A DNA stretch of 64,000 bases from Arthrobacter silvisoli (lineage in GTDB: Bacteria; Actinomycetota; Actinomycetes; Actinomycetales; Micrococcaceae), in NCBI RefSeq assembly GCF_003369445.1, contig NZ_QRCU01000014.1:62001-126000 (forward strand). The letters are read 5' to 3'. How positions within the stretch are numbered: the stretch's first letter is position 1; the number at the start of each line of letters is the position of its first letter. Of this stretch, positions 11,631-20,431 are shown piece by piece. A model generated the notes under the pieces. That model searched no databases. It was not told the DNA's origin and worked only from the letters and a program-made list of their open reading frames with translations. A program made the position numbers and the translations under genes.

Positions 11631-11701
11631 TAGTTGCTTGCGCTTGTTATTTGCGTGTGCAACTATATATTCATCGGCGAAATAACCAGCGCCTGCAACT
11701 A
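11631..11701. promoter_or_regulatory. Operator array upstream of the MFS exporter
   Basis: TAGTTGC occurs at 11631-11637, and its exact complement GCAACTA occurs at 11659-11665 and 11695-11701. The first copy is part of TAGTTGCTTGCGCT, matching the MarR promoter motif at 10697-10710 in 13 of 14 bases. AT-rich ATATAT lies at 11665-11670. Confidence 0.5.
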
Positions 11702-11728
11702 CTTTCCCAGTGTAACAGGAGACCCCTC

Positions 11729-12931
11729 ATGCCTCTCGGCTTACTCGCACTCGCCATCGGCGCGTTCGGCATCGGCCTGACCGAATTCGTCATCATGGGC
11801 CTGCTGCCCGAGGTGGCCGCGGACTTCGCGGTGACCGAGGCTGCCGCCGGATGGCTGATTTCCGGATACGCCCTGAGCGTCGTTGTCGGCGCCCTGCTGC
11901 TGACGGCGGCCACCACCAGGCTCCCGCGCAAGGCCGTGCTGCTGAGCCTGGTCGTGCTCTTCATCGTGGGCAACGCGCTCACCGCCTTGGCAGGCGACTA
12001 CGGTGTGGCGATGATCGGCCGCATCATCGCCGCCCTCTGCCACGGCGCCTTCTTCGGCATCGGCTCCGTGGTTGCCGCGAGCCTGGTCGCCCCGGCCAGG
12101 AAGGCCGGCGCCATCGCCATCATGTTCACCGGCCTCACCGCCGCGAATGTGCTCGGCGTCCCCTTCGGCACCTTCATCGGCCAGCAGTTCGGCTGGCGCG
12201 CCACGTTCTGGGCCATCTCCGGGATCGGCGTCCTGGCCTTCATCGGCATAGCGGTCCTCGTTCCCGTGCTGCAGAAGTCCGGCGTGCAGGTCAGCCTCCG
12301 CAGTGAATTGAAGGCCTTCCGCTCCGGCCAGGTGTGGCTCTCCCTCCTCGTGACGGTCCTCGCCTACGGCGGCATGTTCGGCGCCTTCACCTACATCGCC
12401 TATACGCTCACCGAGGTCAGTGGCTTCGCCTCCGGCTCCGTGCCGTGGCTGCTGGTGCTCTTCGGCGCCGGCCTGGTGGTGGGGAACTGGCTGGGCGGAC
12501 GCCTCGCTGACCGCTCCATCGACGGGACCCTCATCTTCTTCATCGCCGCCCTGATCGTGGTCCTTGGCCTGTTCGGCCTGTTCGCGGGTTCCCAGCCGGC
12601 CACCATCGTTGCCCTGTTCCTCATGGGCGGCTTCGGCTTCGGCACTGTTCCGGGCCTGCAGAGCCGCATCATGATCTACGCGGGCCAGGCACCCACCCTC
12701 GCCTCCGGCGCCAACATCGGCGCCTTCAACGTGGGCAACGCCCTCGGAGCCTGGACCGGCGGCCTCGGCATCGCAGCCGGCCTCGGCTACACCTCCCCCA
12801 TCTGGATCGGCACGGTCATCACTGCCGCCGCCCTGCTCGTCATGGTGATCGCCAAGGCGAGTGCCAAGGACCTGCGTCCTGCGGAAGCCGAGGCGCCCGC
12901 CGTCGACGAATCCGCCGTCGCTGCTCACTAA
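11729..12931 (+). CDS. MFS transporter, AraJ/DHA1-type exporter
   Basis: This 400-residue polytopic protein has about 12 membrane segments. The DHA1 signature region is visible near the N-terminus (FGIGLTEFVIMGLLPEVA), and the loop GGRLADRSIDG carries the charged inter-helix motif. The AraJ-like group exports drugs, sugars or metabolites; the substrate is unknown here. AGGAGA precedes ATG 11729 at good spacing, and the 26-residue upstream extension is rejected. It is 31 bases from the following HbpS/GlcG-like gene, suggesting an operon, and its promoter carries three copies of a MarR-type half-site. Confidence 0.92.
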   Translation: MPLGLLALAIGAFGIGLTEFVIMGLLPEVAADFAVTEAAAGWLISGYALSVVVGALLLTAATTRLPRKAVLLSLVVLFIVGNALTALAGDYGVAMIGRIIAALCHGAFFGIGSVVAASLVAPARKAGAIAIMFTGLTAANVLGVPFGTFIGQQFGWRATFWAISGIGVLAFIGIAVLVPVLQKSGVQVSLRSELKAFRSGQVWLSLLVTVLAYGGMFGAFTYIAYTLTEVSGFASGSVPWLLVLFGAGLVVGNWLGGRLADRSIDGTLIFFIAALIVVLGLFGLFAGSQPATIVALFLMGGFGFGTVPGLQSRIMIYAGQAPTLASGANIGAFNVGNALGAWTGGLGIAAGLGYTSPIWIGTVITAAALLVMVIAKASAKDLRPAEAEAPAVDESAVAAH

Positions 12932-12962: not shown

Positions 12963-13373
12963 ATGGCTGCACACCACCTGACCGCAACGGACGCCGAACT
13001 GCTGATCACGACGGCCCGCGAAGCTGCCGCAGCCGAGGGAGTCAACGTCAGCATCAGCGTGCTCGACGCCGGCGGCCACCTGCTGGCGTTCCGCCGGGAC
13101 GATCAGGCGCTGCTGATCTCGGGCGAGACGAGCACGCGCAAGGCCTACACGGCGGTGCAGCTGAACGCGGCAACGGCCGACGTCGTGGACGCGGTGAAGC
13201 CCGACGGCCCGTTCCACACCCTCGCCACCGCCCTGGACCGCCCGCTGCTGTTCATCGCCGGCGGCATCCCGGTACACCGGGACGGCCGGCTGGTGGGCGC
13301 GATCGGCGTCGGCGGCGGCGCCCCGGAACAGGACCACTCGTTCGCGGCTGCGGCCGTGGCGAGGCTCGGGTAA
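12963..13373 (+). CDS. HbpS/GlcG-like (DUF336) protein
   Basis: This 136-residue single-domain protein belongs to the GlcG/HbpS fold. Family features are VNVSISVLDAGGHLLAFRRD and the C-terminal GGIPVHRDGRLVGAIGVGG. Some members bind haem or cobalamin-like ligands; others have no assigned ligand. AAGGAGA precedes the ATG by six bases. It follows the MFS exporter by 31 bases and is probably co-expressed, so it may bind or sense the exported compound. No signal peptide is seen, so it should be cytoplasmic. Confidence 0.88.
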   Translation: MAAHHLTATDAELLITTAREAAAAEGVNVSISVLDAGGHLLAFRRDDQALLISGETSTRKAYTAVQLNAATADVVDAVKPDGPFHTLATALDRPLLFIAGGIPVHRDGRLVGAIGVGGGAPEQDHSFAAAAVARLG

Positions 13374-13430: not shown

Positions 13431-13991
13431 GTGACATTGACTAAATTCCGCACCGCCGCCGCGAGCTCCCTCGCCGCCGCTGGTCTCCTGCTTTCCCTCG
13501 CCGCCTGTTCCACGCCGGCTGCCACCCCGTCAGCAAGCTCCGCCCCTGCGTCCTCGACTGCGGCTTCTTCCGCCGCCGCGTCCGAGCCCTGCACGGGCGT
13601 GAAGGTCATCATCGACTCGAGCGCCCTGAAGAACGGCCCGGCTGATCCGGCCCCCGCCTGCGTGTCCGTGGACGGTCCGACCCTCGCCTCGAAGGTGCTC
13701 GACGAAGCAAAAGTGAAGACAGAAGGCACCGAGGCCTACCCGAAGGAAGTGGTGTGCCGCGTGAACGGGGTCCCGGCCGCTGACTTCGACATCGCCCACA
13801 AGGGCGGCACGTACAAGGAAGAATGCAAGAAGATGCCCGCCGCCTTCGCCTACTGGTCCGTCTGGGTCAAGCCGGCCACGGGCGCCTGGGCCTACGCCCA
13901 GGAAGGCCTCGCCACCCTGAAGGTCAGCCCGGGCCAGAGCCTGGAACTGCTCTACGCGGTCGACGGCGCACCGACCACTCCGAAGGCGTGA
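13431..13991 (+). CDS. Secreted lipoprotein, DUF4430 (transcobalamin-like)-type, predicted cobalamin-binding
   Basis: This 186-residue lipoprotein has a signal peptide ending in the lipobox LAAC with acylated Cys26. A Ser/Ala/Thr/Pro-rich linker (to about residue 52) and one globular domain follow. The domain pattern (CTGVKVIIDSS, then YWSVWVKPATGAWAYAQEGL and a final LELLYAVDG) resembles the DUF4430 domain related to the transcobalamin C-terminal domain; I judged this by eye. No ribosome binding site precedes GTG 13431, and TACCCT at 13419-13424 sits at -10 distance, so the mRNA is probably leaderless. Its stop overlaps the next gene's start as GTGA, tying it to the ECF transporter. Serving as a surface capture protein for that transporter is an inference. 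Confidence 0.8.
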   Translation: MTLTKFRTAAASSLAAAGLLLSLAACSTPAATPSASSAPASSTAASSAAASEPCTGVKVIIDSSALKNGPADPAPACVSVDGPTLASKVLDEAKVKTEGTEAYPKEVVCRVNGVPAADFDIAHKGGTYKEECKKMPAAFAYWSVWVKPATGAWAYAQEGLATLKVSPGQSLELLYAVDGAPTTPKA

Positions 13992-16801
13992 CCTTTCGAC
14001 CCGCGCCGTTACGCGCAGGGGCGGCTCTCGCCGCCGTATTCATCGCGGCGCGGGTCATCTACCGCATCCTTTTCAACGGGGCGGGCACCGGTGACACGGT
14101 ATGGCTGGACATGCCGGCTATCCAGTTGCCTGCCCCCTACGCGCATGTGATCGTCCTCGGCCCGGTCACAGCAGAAGGGTTGTGGGCGGCAGTCGTGTCC
14201 GCCCTGCCGATCGCCGGCATCATCTTTGGCTTCGGCCTGCTCAACTCCGTGGTGGACGTGGCCCGCGGCTTCGTGGTCCTGGCCCGTGGCGGCCCTTTGC
14301 AGGGCATGGCACGGATGCTGGTGGTGGCTTGGGCGGCGCTCCCGGCACTTTCCGAGGCCGTGGGCTCCGTGCGCCTGGCCTTCCGTCTGCGGGGCGAACG
14401 CTTCGGTGCCCGCGCGCTCGTTCCCGTGCTCGAGCGCACCCTCGAACACGCCAGCCGGGTCGCCGCAGCCTTGGAGCTGCGCGGATTCGGGAGCCGGGCA
14501 GCACGCCGGCCCGGCCCCGGCAACGAGGCGCCCCTGCTCGTCCGGAACGCTGAGTTCCGCATTGCCGACGCGCGGGTGCGCGTCGCCGACCTCGCTCCCC
14601 CGCCCGGGTCCGTCAATGTGATCACCGGGCCCACCGGCTCCGGCAAGTCCACCATCCTGCGGGGACTGGCCGGCCTCCTTTCCCACGTCGACGGCGGAGA
14701 CACCTCCGGCACGGTCCGCGTCGGCGGGACTGACCGGGCCGCCGCCCCGCCACGCGACACTGCCCGCCTCATCGGCGTCGTCCTCCAGAACCCACGCGCC
14801 GCTTTCGCCACCACCAGGGTCCGTGACGAAATCGGTCTCGCGCTGGAACTGCGCGGGGTGGCCCCCGGCGACGCCAAGGCCCGGGTGCTGGAAGTCGCCG
14901 GGCGCATCGGTGTGACGGCGCTGCTGGACCGGAACCTCAGCACCCTCTCGGCAGGTGAGGCGACGCTCGTGGCCATCGCCGCCGCCGTCGTCGAGCATCC
15001 GCTCCTGCTCCTGGTCGACGAACCGCTGGCCGACCTCGATACCGTGGCCCGCGAACGCGTCATCACGGTGCTCAGCACGCTCGCCCATGAGGCGGGCGTC
15101 TGCGTCATCGTGGCGGAGCACCGGGCTGAAGCCCTTGTACCCGTTGCCGATGCGTGGTGGAGCATCGACGACGGCGCCCTGGTGCCGGGCATGCCCCCCT
15201 CTCCTTCGGCGGCGCCCGCCGCCCGTCCGGCTTCCGCGCCGGCTGCTGGGCACGCACCCGTGCTGACCGCGACACAGCTCTCGGTGCACCGCGCGGGCAA
15301 GCCGCTGGTGCGCGACGCCTCCCTGACCTTGCACCGCGGCGAGGTGGTGGCCCTGGTGGGGCCGAACGGTGCCGGGAAGTCGTCCCTGCTCGTGGCACTC
15401 GCCCTCGGCGAAGGCACGCGCGGAGGAACGCCCGACGGCGGCCGGGCCGCCGCCGCCCGTACCGCGTTGGTCCCGGACGCCTCCGACGACCTCTTCACGA
15501 GGGACACCGTGGCGGCCGAGCTCCGCGCGGCCGACCGGCGGGTGCAGCGAAAGCATGGACTGGCCTCTGGCGGTGCCGCCTCACGCCTGGTCCGCTTACG
15601 GGGCGACGCCCGGATTCCGATGGAGCGCGAGCATCCCCGGGACCTCTCGGCGGGAGAGCGCAGGATCCTTGCCATCGCGTTGCAGACCACCGACAGCCCG
15701 GACGTCCTACTCATCGACGAACCGACGCGCGGCCTCGATCCCGCGGCTCGCACAGCGGTCTCGGCGGCGCTGCGGGCGGCAGCGGACGACGGCGCCGCGG
15801 TCCTGATCGCCACCCACGACCTCGATTTCGCCCACGGCCTGGGCGCCCGGATCCTTCCCATGCGCGACGGCATCGCGCCCTCACCGGAACCGGTTCCGGC
15901 ACCCGAAGCAGCCGTTTCCGCCACCCGGGAGCCGGCTGCCGCCGGACAGGGTGCTGCTTCGGTGTGGGTGCGCGACCCGGCGTGGGCGCGCGACGCGCAG
16001 ACCGAGCTTCGCGCCGCGGTGCGGGGGCGGCACGTCCGCTTGCCACGGGCCACCGAGCTCACGGTCCTCGCGGCCGCGAACCTTGTGGCCCTGGCGTCTT
16101 TCTGCTGGCCGCTGCTTGCCGCGGCCCTGCCGGAGGATGCCGCGGCGTCACTCCCCTACGCCGCGCTGGCCATCGCACCCCTGGCCGCCGTCGCCGTCGT
16201 GGTGTCCCTCGACGGTTCGGTGCGCTCCGCCCACACGGTCGCACTGCTCGGGGTGCTGGCCGCCGTCGGCTCCGTGGTCCGGGTGGCGAGCACCGGCGTC
16301 GGGGGCGTGGAGGCGGTGTTTATCCTGCTGATCCTGGCCGGCCGTGCTTTCGGCGCCCGCTTCGGCCTGCTCCTGGGCGCCGCGACGATCGCCCTCTCGA
16401 GTGCGTTGTGGGGCGGGATCGGGCCGTGGTCGCCGTTCCAGATTTTCGCCTGTGCGTGGGTGGGCGCCGGGGCCGGCCTGCTCCCCCGCCTGGTCCGCGG
16501 GAAGGCCGAGCTATGGATGCTGTGCGGCTACGGCATCGTCTCGTCCTACCTGTTCGGCCTGCTGACCAATCTGTGGTTCTGGCCGTTCGCTGTCGGCGCC
16601 GGCACTGGGATCTCTTATGTTCCCGGCGCTCCGCTGGGCACCAACCTCAGCAGCTTCCTGCTCTACTCGCTGCTGACCTCGACCGCCGGTTGGGACACCT
16701 TGCGCGCCGCCACCACGATCATCGGAATCAGTGTGGTGGGGCGCGCAATTCTCGCCGCCCTGCGGCGGGTGAAGCCGGTCAGAAGTCCTGCCAGGCCCTG
16801 A
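13988..16801 (+). CDS. Single-chain ECF transporter: EcfT - EcfA - EcfA - S component fusion
   Basis: This 937-residue protein joins the parts of an energy-coupling-factor vitamin importer. Residues 1 to about 190 are membrane segments ending in the EcfT coupling motif AAALELRGFG. ATPase 1 has Walker A GPTGSGKS (214-221), a degenerate signature LSAGE (320-324) and Walker B LLLLVDEP (Asp344, Glu345). ATPase 2 has GPNGAGKS (458-465), LSAGE (553-557) and VLLIDEP (Asp577, Glu578). Residues about 686-937 are hydrophobic and carry GIGPWSPFQIF, as in ECF S components. GTG 13988 overlaps the lipoprotein stop. It ends six bases before metH, which converges on it. Cobalamin is the best-supported substrate, from context only. 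Confidence 0.88.
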   Translation: MTFRPAPLRAGAALAAVFIAARVIYRILFNGAGTGDTVWLDMPAIQLPAPYAHVIVLGPVTAEGLWAAVVSALPIAGIIFGFGLLNSVVDVARGFVVLARGGPLQGMARMLVVAWAALPALSEAVGSVRLAFRLRGERFGARALVPVLERTLEHASRVAAALELRGFGSRAARRPGPGNEAPLLVRNAEFRIADARVRVADLAPPPGSVNVITGPTGSGKSTILRGLAGLLSHVDGGDTSGTVRVGGTDRAAAPPRDTARLIGVVLQNPRAAFATTRVRDEIGLALELRGVAPGDAKARVLEVAGRIGVTALLDRNLSTLSAGEATLVAIAAAVVEHPLLLLVDEPLADLDTVARERVITVLSTLAHEAGVCVIVAEHRAEALVPVADAWWSIDDGALVPGMPPSPSAAPAARPASAPAAGHAPVLTATQLSVHRAGKPLVRDASLTLHRGEVVALVGPNGAGKSSLLVALALGEGTRGGTPDGGRAAAARTALVPDASDDLFTRDTVAAELRAADRRVQRKHGLASGGAASRLVRLRGDARIPMEREHPRDLSAGERRILAIALQTTDSPDVLLIDEPTRGLDPAARTAVSAALRAAADDGAAVLIATHDLDFAHGLGARILPMRDGIAPSPEPVPAPEAAVSATREPAAAGQGAASVWVRDPAWARDAQTELRAAVRGRHVRLPRATELTVLAAANLVALASFCWPLLAAALPEDAAASLPYAALAIAPLAAVAVVVSLDGSVRSAHTVALLGVLAAVGSVVRVASTGVGGVEAVFILLILAGRAFGARFGLLLGAATIALSSALWGGIGPWSPFQIFACAWVGAGAGLLPRLVRGKAELWMLCGYGIVSSYLFGLLTNLWFWPFAVGAGTGISYVPGAPLGTNLSSFLLYSLLTSTAGWDTLRAATTIIGISVVGRAILAALRRVKPVRSPARP

Positions 16802-16807
16802 CGTACC

Positions 16808-19800
16808 TCAGACCTTGAAGTACTTCGCCTCCGGGTGGTGGAAGACGAAGGCATCGGTGGACTGTTCGGGGTGCAGCATCAGTTCGTCGCTGAGGACCAC
16901 GCCCATGCGTTCGGGCTTCAGCAGTTCCACCACCTTGCGGCGGTCCTCCATGTCCGGGCACGCGGGGTAGCCGAGCGAGAACCGGGCGCCGCGGTAGTCC
17001 AGTTTGAACAGCCCGGCCTTGTCCTTCGGCTCCTCGGCGGCGAAGCCCAGCTCCGAGCGGACGCGCGCGTGCCAGAACTCGGCGAGCGCCTCGGTGAGCT
17101 GCATGACCAGGCCGTTGAGCTCGTAGTAGTCGCGGTAGTGGTTTCCGGCGAACAGCTCCGCCGTCACTTCATCGATCTTGTTGCCGGCGGTCACCAGTTG
17201 CACCGGCAGGACGTCCACCTGCCCCGCTTCGCGCGAGCGAACGAAGTCGGCGAGGCACAGGTGCCGGTCGCGGCGCTGGCGCGGGAAGTCGAAACGCAGG
17301 CGCTCGGAGCCGATCGGGCCGCCTGAACCACCATCGGGAGCGAGCAGGCCCGCAGTGCCGAGGACGCCGTCGCGGTCTTCGCCGTGGTGCAACACCACCA
17401 CCTGCTCCCCCTCGGACACCACCGGGAAGTAACCGTAGGCGACAGAGGCGTCGAGCATGCCTTCGCCGAGGATGCGGTCCAGCCAGTACCGCAGGCGCGG
17501 CCGGCCTTCGCGCTCCACCAGTTCCTCGTAGGAGGCACCGTCCTCGCCGCGGCCGGGCTTGAGCCCCCACTGGCCCATGAACGTGGCGCGTTCATCGAGG
17601 TACGCTGCGAAGTCGGCGAGCGCCACGCCGCGCACGATGCGCGTGCCCCAGAACGGCGGCGCGGGCACGTGGTTGTCGGCGGCCACGTCCGAGCGGCCGG
17701 GCATGGCTTCCGGTTCGGTCAGGGTGAGCGTCCCGCCCTTCTTGTGGTGGCGCTTCTTGAGTGCGGGCAGGCCGACTTCTGCGGGGTCTTCCCCGCGCGC
17801 GACGCGCACCAGGGGCTCCATGAGGGCCAGTCCCTCGAAAGCGTCCTTGGCGTACCGGACCTCGCCTTCGAACTGCCCGGCCAGGTCGCTTTCGACATAG
17901 GCGCGGGTCAGCGCCGCACCGCCGAGGATGACCGGCCACTTCTTAGCGAGGCCGCGGGACTGCAGTTCCTCCAGGTTTTCCTTCATCACCACGGTGGACT
18001 TCACGAGCAGCCCGGACATGCCGATCACGTCCGCGTTGTGCTCCTCCGCGGCGGCGATGATGTCGGCAATCGGCTGCTTGATGCCGAGGTTGATCACCTT
18101 GTAGCCGTTGTTGGTGAGGATGATGTCCACCAGGTTCTTGCCGATGTCGTGCACGTCGCCGCGCACGGTGGCGATCACCATGGTGCCCTTGCCGGAGGAA
18201 TCCGACTTCTCCATGTGCGGTTCGAGCAGGGCGACCGCCGTCTTCATGACCTCGGCGGACTGCAGCACGAACGGCAACTGCATCTCACCGGCGCCGAAAC
18301 GCTCACCGACCACCTTCATGCCTTCGAGCAGGTGGTCGTTGATGATGCCGAGCGCGGTCATGCCTTCGGCGCGGGCCAGGTCGAGGTCCTCTTCGAGGCC
18401 CTTGCCTTCGCCGTCAATGATGCGCCGCTGCAGCCGCTCGCCCGTGGGCAGCGCCGCGAGTTCGGCGGCCCGCTGGTCGCGCAGGGCAGCGGTGTCGACG
18501 CCGGCGAACATGTCCAGCATGCTGGCGAGCGGATCGTACGTGACGTTGCCGTCGGCGTCGTATTCGCGGCGGTCCCACACGAGGTCCAGGGCCACCTTGC
18601 GCTGTTCCTCCGGGAGGGAGGCGAGCGGCACGATCTTCGCGGCGTCGATGATGCCGCTGGTCAGGCCGGCTTCCGCGGCTTCGTGCAGGAATACGGAGTT
18701 CAGGACGATGCGCGCGGCCGGGTTGAGGCCGAAGGACACATTGGAGACGCCGAGCGTGGTCTGGATGCCCGGGTACTTCGTGGTGATCTGGCGGATGGCC
18801 TCGATGGTTTCGATGCCGTCGCGGCGGGTCTCTTCCTGGCCGGTGGCGATGGGGAAGGTGAGGCAGTCGACGATGATGTCTTCGACCTTCATTCCCCATT
18901 CGCCCACCAGGGCGTCGACGAGGCGCGAGGCGATGGCCACCTTGCCCTCGGTGGTACGGGCCTGGCCCTGTTCGTCAATGGTCAGGGCGATCACGGCGGT
19001 GCCGTGTTCCTTCACGAGGGGCATGATGCGGGCGAAACGGCTGTCCGGTCCGTCGCCGTCCTCGTAGTTGACGGAGTTGACCACCGGGCGCCCGCCGATG
19101 AGTTCGAGGCCGGCCTGCAGCACGGGCGGTTCAGTGGAGTCGATGACGAGCGGGAGCGTGGAGGCCGAGGCGAAGCGGGAGACGACTTCCTTGATGTCGG
19201 CGACGCCGTCGCGCCCCACATAGTCGATGCAGACGTCGAGCAGGTGGGCGCCGACGCGGATCTGCTCGCGGGCGATGTCGACGCAGTCGTCCCAGCGCTC
19301 TTCGAGCATCGCTTCGCGGAACGCCTTCGAGCCGTTGGCGTTGGTGCGCTCACCGATGGCGAGGTAGGAGGACTCCTGGTCGAAGGACACGTGCTGGTAG
19401 AGGGACGCGATGCCGGGGTCCTGTTCGCTCGGCACCCGGCCGCCGGCGCCTTCGGCGCGGAAGGGCGCAAGGCGTTCGACGACGGCGGCCATGTGTTCCG
19501 GCGTCGTACCGCAACAGCCGCCCACCAGGCCCAGGCCGAATTCGCGGACGAACTGTTCGTGCGCGGTGGCGAGTTCGGCGGGCGACAGCGGATAGTGCGC
19601 GCCGTTGGCGCCAAGAATGGGCAGGCCGGCGTTGGGCATGCAGGCGATCGGCACGGTGGACTGCTTGGAGAGGTGGCGCAGGTGTTCGCTCATCTCGTCA
19701 GGGCCGGTGGCGCAGTTCAGGCCGATGGCGTCGACGCCGAGCGGTTCCAGGGCGGTGAGCGCGGCGCCGATTTCCGAGCCCATCAGCATGGTTCCGGTGG

Positions 19801-20431
19801 TCTCGACGGTCACCTCGACGAAGATCGGGAGGCGGACGCCGCGGGACACGATGGCCTGCTTACAGCCGTTGACGGCGGCCTTGGTCTGCAGGAGGTCCTG
19901 GCTGGTTTCGATGAGGAAGGCGTCCGCGCCGCCGTCGATGAGGCCTTCGGCCTGCAGGGCGAAGGTCTGCTTGAGGTAGTCGTACGTGGTGTGCCCGAGG
20001 CTGGGGAGCTTGGTGCCGGGGCCCATGGAGCCCAAGACCCAGCGGGTGCGGCCGTCTGTTTTTTCTGCCTCTTCCGCCCGTTCGCGGGCGATCTTGGCGC
20101 CCTTGAGTGCCAGTTCCGCGATCCGGTCATCGATGCCGTAGTCGGAGAGGTTGGACCAGTTCGCGCCGAAGGTGTTGGTCTCGACCGCGTCGATGCCCGT
20201 GGCGAAGTACGCGTCGTGGATGTCCGCGATGACGTCCGGCCGCGTGTCGTTGAGGATCTCGTTGCAGCCTTCCAGGTTCTGGAAGTCATCCTCCAGCGAG
20301 AGCTCGCGGTCCTGCAGCATGGTGCCCATCGCGCCGTCGGCGATGACGACCCGCTGGTTCACGGCATCCAGAAGGGCTTGGGCGCGAGCGGGACGGGGGA
20401 CCGAGTCGATATCAAGGGCGAAACGAGGCAT
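16808..20431 (-). CDS. metH: Cobalamin-dependent methionine synthase
   Basis: This enzyme transfers the methyl group of methyltetrahydrofolate to homocysteine through bound cobalamin. The 1207 residues contain all four modules. The homocysteine module (1 to about 330) has the zinc-site segment GGCCGTTPEH. The pterin-binding module (about 345-620) begins YLAIGERTNANGSKAFREAM. The B12 module has GDVHDIGKN, with cobalt-ligating His761. The reactivation module (about 920-1207) has the AdoMet-site region RGARFSLGYPACPD. ATG 20431 is the natural start. No cobalamin riboswitch-like B12 box was seen upstream. It is convergent with, and six bases from, the predicted vitamin importer. Confidence 0.97.
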   Translation of the reverse strand: MPRFALDIDSVPRPARAQALLDAVNQRVVIADGAMGTMLQDRELSLEDDFQNLEGCNEILNDTRPDVIADIHDAYFATGIDAVETNTFGANWSNLSDYGIDDRIAELALKGAKIARERAEEAEKTDGRTRWVLGSMGPGTKLPSLGHTTYDYLKQTFALQAEGLIDGGADAFLIETSQDLLQTKAAVNGCKQAIVSRGVRLPIFVEVTVETTGTMLMGSEIGAALTALEPLGVDAIGLNCATGPDEMSEHLRHLSKQSTVPIACMPNAGLPILGANGAHYPLSPAELATAHEQFVREFGLGLVGGCCGTTPEHMAAVVERLAPFRAEGAGGRVPSEQDPGIASLYQHVSFDQESSYLAIGERTNANGSKAFREAMLEERWDDCVDIAREQIRVGAHLLDVCIDYVGRDGVADIKEVVSRFASASTLPLVIDSTEPPVLQAGLELIGGRPVVNSVNYEDGDGPDSRFARIMPLVKEHGTAVIALTIDEQGQARTTEGKVAIASRLVDALVGEWGMKVEDIIVDCLTFPIATGQEETRRDGIETIEAIRQITTKYPGIQTTLGVSNVSFGLNPAARIVLNSVFLHEAAEAGLTSGIIDAAKIVPLASLPEEQRKVALDLVWDRREYDADGNVTYDPLASMLDMFAGVDTAALRDQRAAELAALPTGERLQRRIIDGEGKGLEEDLDLARAEGMTALGIINDHLLEGMKVVGERFGAGEMQLPFVLQSAEVMKTAVALLEPHMEKSDSSGKGTMVIATVRGDVHDIGKNLVDIILTNNGYKVINLGIKQPIADIIAAAEEHNADVIGMSGLLVKSTVVMKENLEELQSRGLAKKWPVILGGAALTRAYVESDLAGQFEGEVRYAKDAFEGLALMEPLVRVARGEDPAEVGLPALKKRHHKKGGTLTLTEPEAMPGRSDVAADNHVPAPPFWGTRIVRGVALADFAAYLDERATFMGQWGLKPGRGEDGASYEELVEREGRPRLRYWLDRILGEGMLDASVAYGYFPVVSEGEQVVVLHHGEDRDGVLGTAGLLAPDGGSGGPIGSERLRFDFPRQRRDRHLCLADFVRSREAGQVDVLPVQLVTAGNKIDEVTAELFAGNHYRDYYELNGLVMQLTEALAEFWHARVRSELGFAAEEPKDKAGLFKLDYRGARFSLGYPACPDMEDRRKVVELLKPERMGVVLSDELMLHPEQSTDAFVFHHPEAKYFKV

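Follow-up and report, generated by a model that had tools for sequence, protein, structure and literature searches.

A predicted one-chain ECF importer with a transcobalamin-beta-like lipoprotein beside metH in Arthrobacter silvisoli

The characterised B12 (cobalamin) importer of the energy-coupling factor (ECF) type, ECF-CbrT of Lactobacillus delbrueckii, uses a module predicted to be common to eight S components (PMC5997447), and fusions of the two ATPases, A and A', are known (PMC6828968). A role in scavenging B12 or B12 precursors has been proposed for bacterial transcobalamin-like SLBB (beta-grasp) proteins whose genes accompany those of CbiO and CbiQ (Burroughs et al. 2007; PMC1796856). 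Here we describe a locus in a 64,000-nucleotide stretch of Arthrobacter silvisoli DNA (contig NZ_QRCU01000014.1, positions 62,001 to 126,000; the window, from the genome labelled G000), in which a lipoprotein gene is followed by one 937-codon gene for the T (EcfT-like), A, A' and S parts of an ECF-type ATP-binding cassette (ABC) importer and then by metH, encoding cobalamin-dependent methionine synthase (Table 1). ECF importers normally consist of several separate proteins. Our reading, to which we assign a probability of roughly 0.84, is that the single-chain T-A-A'-S importer and the lipoprotein, predicted to resemble the transcobalamin beta domain, import B12, or a complete cobamide related to it, for the adjoining MetH.

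Like ECF-CbrT and the group I importers, the protein combines an EcfT-like part bearing two coupling-helix motifs with two ABC ATPases and a membrane S part, and like group I systems (BioMNY, CbiMNQO) it has dedicated T and A units. It shares its likely substrate with ECF-CbrT but differs in having all parts in one chain and a shortened T. With the SLBB systems (PMC1796856) it shares a secreted beta-grasp domain beside CbiQ- and CbiO-like parts, in bacteria usually lacking key B12 synthesis enzymes, but its host is an actinobacterium, its lipoprotein has no toroid and its importer is one chain. Unlike animal transcobalamin, intrinsic factor and haptocorrin, the lipoprotein is lipid-anchored and lacks an alpha domain. 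No single-chain T-A-A'-S importer was found in open-licence papers; an earlier mention may exist in Rodionov et al. (2009), reportedly a survey of vitamin ECF systems. The notion that B12 is scavenged in this way is not itself new; what is new is the one-chain build, the shortened T, its origin in steps and the actinobacterial family with its evidence from riboswitches and MetH.

The one-chain importer and its lipoprotein

A sequence-only reading had described an EcfT-like part, two complete ATPase cassettes and an S-like C-terminus in the 937-codon gene, and all three were recovered. Submitted by themselves, residues 1-181 score 25.7 bits against Pfam CbiQ (gathering 25), and this part contains two A-x-x-x-R-G motifs (AFRLRG at 131 and ALELRG at 161), which we take to mark coupling helices. 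By hydropathy count, the T parts of the window and of the relative L072 (L and G numbers label relatives' loci and genomes) have three hydrophobic segments in 180-185 residues, compared with seven or eight in the 295-389 residues of five stand-alone T proteins. Pfam places ABC_tran on two stretches (E 6e-39), and cassettes A and A' have Walker A at 214 and 458, LSAGE at 320 and 553, and Walker B at 339 and 573, respectively. The LSAGE signatures, pointed out earlier for both ATPases, are typical of the fused clade, with LSGGQ and LSEGQ in the unfused relatives L021 and L026. At the Q-loop position A' has VPD in the window, VPD or VPE in four others of the clade and VPQ in L021 and L026, the VPQ position presumably being the expected Q-loop site. 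Because A' carries Asp or Glu where Gln is expected, the two cassettes may be functionally unequal. The surrounding residues in the window and L069-L072 read LVPDASDD, LVPDNSDD, LVPDTSDD, LVPEASDD and LVPENFDD.

Searched by themselves, the last 256 residues gave no match in Pfam or NCBIfam. They are 38-42% identical to six stand-alone proteins that end T / A-A' / S operons. Two of these six were run against Pfam, and both match PF12822 (ECF_trnsprt) at 30.7 and 38.5 bits (cut-off 30.7), as do three of the ten sequences of a wider S alignment (A6) at E up to 0.01. The C-terminus is thus homologous to PF12822-positive S components, rather than lying outside ECF S components. A domain search by parts, proposed with the sequence-only reading, identified T and the ATPases directly and S through its relatives. 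Judged from sequence, the 937-amino-acid (aa) protein has the ECF traits of a T part with two coupling-helix motifs, two complete ATPases and S homology. An AlphaFold2 model of the whole chain had a mean predicted local distance difference test (pLDDT) score of 70.9 and a predicted template modelling (pTM) score of 0.69, with modest confidence in S; among the matches listed, a fold search with this model returned ATPases only and so left the T and S parts uncovered.

The lipoprotein had been called DUF4430-like and related to transcobalamin. The transcobalamin link holds through the predicted fold: modelling confirmed a predicted transcobalamin-beta-like domain, at 16-20% identity to animal transcobalamin-type carriers. 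The DUF4430 label does not, since neither the lipoprotein nor 15 relatives matched this Pfam profile at E up to 0.1, and by profile the protein is not filed as a member. Pfam and NCBIfam returned only DUF4764 (0.028) and SCO2322_fam (E 9e-4, 19.6 bits, cut-off 85), and phmmer and profile searches of PDB sequences gave no relevant match. In the model, a helix (86-92) is followed by strands at 97-99, 108-111, 121-123 and 126-128; a beta-hairpin insert after the helix is a trait of the transcobalamin-like SLBB clade (PMC1796856). Cys26, Cys77, Cys109 and Cys132 are invariant in 16 of 16 aligned sequences. No alpha/alpha toroid domain is present in the model of the 186-aa lipoprotein, and a single-sequence toroid query found no match upstream of S in any of 75 classified loci (see below). 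Such a protein would be a simple bacterial counterpart of the beta domain of the human B12 carrier. Several lipoprotein relatives, P0017 and P0022 among them, are labelled PF28005.1 in precomputed annotation, a label that none of the searches gave for the window's lipoprotein.

The fused gene begins in the GTGA overlap with the lipoprotein gene that had been noted before, and its stop lies 6 bp from that of metH. The sequence-only reading gave this spacing, and the identity of metH, correctly but did not mention its strand: metH is convergent with the importer gene, tail to tail, and the pair is therefore not co-transcribed. The predicted fold of the gap between them was no better than shuffles.

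Table 1. Features of the locus, in positions of the window
Feature	Position	Strand	Evidence or remark
Lipoprotein gene, 186 aa	13431..13991	+	signal peptide with lipobox LAAC
Lipobox LAAC, residues 23-26	13506-13508 (Cys26)	+	
Beta-grasp domain, residues 55-178, predicted fold of transcobalamin beta domain	13593..13964	+	predicted model
GTGA overlap, importer start codon over lipoprotein stop codon	13988..13991	+	sequence
Fused ECF importer gene T-A-A'-S, 937 aa, start GTG 13988	13988..16801	+	
T part, shortened EcfT, residues 1-180, about 3 hydrophobic segments	13988..14527	+	CbiQ match, motifs
First ATPase cassette A, residues 181-407	14528..15208	+	
Second ATPase cassette A', residues 422-632	15251..15883	+	VPD at expected Q-loop glutamine
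S-component part, residues 682-937	16031..16798	+	38-42% identity to six stand-alone S proteins; PF12822 in relatives
metH, cobalamin-dependent methionine synthase, convergent with importer gene	16808..20431	-	TIGR02082 1354.6 bits; Met_synt_B12 and B12-binding domains

Riboswitches, MetH and the likely substrate

Comparison with relatives revealed a link between unfused importers and cobalamin riboswitches. The S profile matched 161 of 396 sampled Actinomycetota genomes, many of them weakly, and 54 of these, selected to spread over families among the stronger matches, were searched genome-wide for RF00174. A match lay 3.4-6.3 kb upstream of S, on its strand, in 34 of the 54, against a crude chance expectation of 0.2. 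Matches within 12 kb of S occurred in 37 genomes, three of which did not have them upstream on the same strand. The shared S profile suggests a likely assignment as cobalamin importers for a widespread actinobacterial ECF family (the 161 genomes, weak matches included).

The Streptomyces operon type (SCO2321/SCO2322; NCBIfam NF053823 and NF040672) has homologous T, A-A' and S proteins and a beta domain related to the window's lipoprotein. It differs in having separate genes, in the order toroid protein (SCO2321 family), SCO2322, T, A-A' and S, with an upstream riboswitch in most but not all genomes checked; no separate toroid protein was found in the fused clade. At L021, where the toroid protein matches the SCO2321 family at 587.6 bits, a cobalamin riboswitch precedes the operon (31.6 bits, gathering 31.5), the sole match over threshold in six loci. 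At L026 the order SCO2322, T, A-A', S is followed by a CobU-domain gene (E 6.8e-50) and a CobS gene (5.2e-39). Eight Microbacteriaceae loci were examined, comprising exceptions (no MetH, or metH not adjacent) and one linked case, and all six separate-gene Microbacteriaceae loci had a cobalamin riboswitch. No such riboswitch exceeded threshold at eight other loci (three fused, five half-fused) or at the half-fused L192 and L194, nor anywhere in G000, G008, G206, G237, G280 or G387.

These neighbourhoods bear on whether the importer instead carries a different vitamin or cofactor, namely riboflavin or folate, metH being its neighbour by accident of inheritance. S relatives do match ECF-ribofla_trS weakly (best 1e-8) and the folate-type TIGR04518 at 16.2 bits (cut-off 60), but in the loci compared with the whole of Rfam no riboswitch family other than Cobalamin and AdoCbl exceeded threshold, the lipoprotein has the predicted fold described above, and MetH co-occurs even where the genes are not adjacent, making this explanation highly improbable. 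With CobU and CobS genes beside one relative, the neighbourhoods point to B12 and not to another vitamin.

A second alternative is that the CbiQ- and CbiO-like parts import cobalt ions, the relatives' riboswitch controlling cobalt supply for B12 synthesis. The T part does match Pfam CbiQ, named 'Cobalt transport protein', the ATPases score 148.7 bits with the cbiO model, short of its 211.8-bit cut-off, and B12-dependent riboswitches have also been reported upstream of transporter operons interpreted as cobalt uptake (PMC2667541). Nevertheless, the S relatives match ECF_trnsprt and no match to CbiM was reported, the lipoprotein that accompanies the importer has the predicted fold of a corrinoid-binding protein, and importer presence follows MetH. 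In addition, CobS has no match in G000, so that this genome would gain little from cobalt destined for B12 synthesis. We regard cobalt import as very unlikely.

The co-occurrence survey proposed with the sequence-only reading showed that the transporter tracks MetH in two families, whose names were judged from named relatives: Micrococcaceae (the family of the window) and Microbacteriaceae (that of G280). Among 197 Micrococcaceae genomes, S was found in 10 and MetH in 12, with all 10 shared, and among 199 Microbacteriaceae genomes S was found in 36 and MetH in 32, all 32 within the 36 (Fisher p 3.4e-15 and 5.9e-33, respectively, phylogeny ignored). In Microbacteriaceae metH lay within 10 kb of S and convergent in 26 of 32 genomes, and was not within 10 kb on one contig in the other six. 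MetH was the sole PF02310 match in G000 and nine other S-bearing genomes of the family, and seven same-genus genomes without S had no PF02310 match. CobS gave no match over cut-off in 21 genomes, with two weak matches below it and none in G000. MetE was present in G000 and in the nine other S-bearing genomes. Together these results suggest that MetH would be the one user of the import, with MetE to fall back on.

The importer might also take up corrinoids without being dedicated to MetH, for example by scavenging cobinamide or corrinoids in general. The separate-gene version occurs in four Microbacteriaceae that lack MetH, and many unfused relatives retain the importer in genomes with several cobalamin riboswitches. 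In the window's genome, however, with MetH as the sole PF02310 match and no CobS match, the usual route for completing cobinamide would be closed and MetH would be the only user of the import, so that we consider a general corrinoid role quite unlikely here.

Import of a complete cobamide for MetH is thus supported, as the sequence-only reading had it, by riboswitches, neighbourhoods, MetH co-occurrence and the predicted lipoprotein fold, at the level of sequence and model. Several observations weigh against it. At the locus itself, metH is outside the importer operon. Rfam found just a tRNA in the window and no riboswitch, RF00174 is absent from all of G000, and the 57 bp separating the lipoprotein gene from the preceding gene leave no room for a cobalamin riboswitch. 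For the proteins, S matched no solved S component in phmmer and profile searches of PDB sequences, its weak family matches include the riboflavin- and folate-type S families, and Foldseek E-values of the lipoprotein against the carriers were weak (0.02-0.23, none at or below 0.001). In the riboswitch survey, the nearest match was above the gathering score in 19 of the 34 genomes and at 24-30 bits, below gathering, in 15. A further 20 of the 54 lacked a same-strand upstream match; they include the fused or half-fused G008, G206, G237, G280 and G387 and the Streptomyces-type separate-gene G023, G104 and G182, and in several a match is found on a different contig or in a different orientation. 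The transporter is missing from two Micrococcaceae that have MetH, and in the four Microbacteriaceae with the transporter but no MetH the genes are separate and accompanied by a cobalamin riboswitch. Finally, because MetE is present, B12 is probably optional rather than essential in G000, and because this assembly is in 78 contigs, absences in it may be gaps.

A promoter scan around the lipoprotein start gave no promoter-like site. Elsewhere, 12 kb of G192 (C1:672000-684000, mostly L073) held five cobalamin riboswitch matches, one sub-gathering, around one importer operon. SCO2322-family proteins (L021-L026, L068 and L076) seem to be circularly permuted versions of the transcobalamin beta-domain fold predicted for the window's lipoprotein. 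In L021 (9843-11054, minus strand, under the cobalamin riboswitch), L022-L025 and L076 a SCO2321-family toroid protein is encoded next to the permuted beta domain, and the two are possibly a two-protein bacterial counterpart of transcobalamin.

History of the fusion

A scan of named genomes gave at least 588 pattern matches and 458 relatives, of which 80 loci were kept, so that genus counts are not a census. Of these, 75 were classified; L135, L141, L147, L174 and L177 were left out, S lying outside the scanned part (contig edges or short records). Full T-A-A'-S genes were found at 48 of the 75 loci (Microbacterium 22, Arthrobacter 17, Pseudarthrobacter 7, Agromyces 2), and since T, A and S share one frame at so many, the fusion is not due to chance. 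Half-fused forms, with T and the ATPases in one frame and S in another, accounted for 21 (Cryobacterium 12, Agromyces 4, Aurantimicrobium 3, Glaciibacter 1 and one metagenome-assembled genome), the remainder being one probably frameshifted and five separate-gene loci. A match to the lipoprotein profile lay upstream at 74 of the 75. Convergent metH within 9 kb accompanied 43 of 48 full, 19 of 21 half-fused, the one frameshifted and none of the five separate-gene loci, contig ends cutting some of them. A sequencing artefact as the source of the fusion was ruled out by this recurrence. At L143 (Arthrobacter sp. Hiyo4) a single frame encodes A and S, and T was not found in it, probably because of a frameshift in the assembly.

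In a tree of S (86 rows), separate forms stand on one side (100/100), half-fused forms make up a grade, and the full fusions fall into a single clade (100/98) once the frameshifted row is included; the half-fused L176 is on a long branch and its place is unsure. The Micrococcaceae, including the window, form one clade of 26 rows (100/100) beside a Microbacterium (100/96). In the metH tree (71 rows, FastTree, midpoint root), metH of the Micrococcaceae is nested among Microbacterium (22-row clade, 99; deeper forks 82-88). The nearest Microbacterium differs between the two trees, and MetH of two importer-less Micrococcaceae falls elsewhere in the metH tree, on a long branch. The simplest reading is that lipoprotein, importer and metH were transferred jointly.

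Two small-genome Microbacteriaceae loci, L191 and L193, encode a relative of the window's lipoprotein; their T, A-A' and S genes are separate and stand behind a cobalamin-type riboswitch, and metH is over 100 kb distant, an arrangement that is likely a picture of the state before fusion.

Proposed working and neighbouring genes

Import could proceed as follows. The lipid-anchored beta domain would grip the cobamide outside the cell and hand it to the S part, whose binding pocket would face outwards. ATP binding and hydrolysis at both cassettes would move the two coupling helices of the T part, and this movement would tip the S part, releasing inside the cell a cobamide that MetH could use.

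Current ECF models have S dynamically associating with and dissociating from the ATPase module (PMC12075633) and toppling in the membrane (PMC10368641). A natural T-A-A'-S chain, which would have to cycle without release of S, is a ready test of whether such release is needed at all, and its fixed subunit make-up would be useful for structural work. A more far-reaching picture, which we hold only tentatively and at somewhat less than even odds, is of a complete one-chain ECF importer with about three hydrophobic segments in T, whose S never leaves the T/A module, in which the lipid-anchored half-transcobalamin and S would clasp B12 between them, S replacing the missing alpha domain, and in which receptor, importer and MetH would have moved between bacterial families as one block.

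The gene upstream of the lipoprotein gene is HbpS-like (12963-13373, plus strand; PF03928, E 4.6e-35) and ends 57 bp before it, preceded in turn by an open reading frame (11651-12931) with the look of a major facilitator superfamily (MFS) protein.
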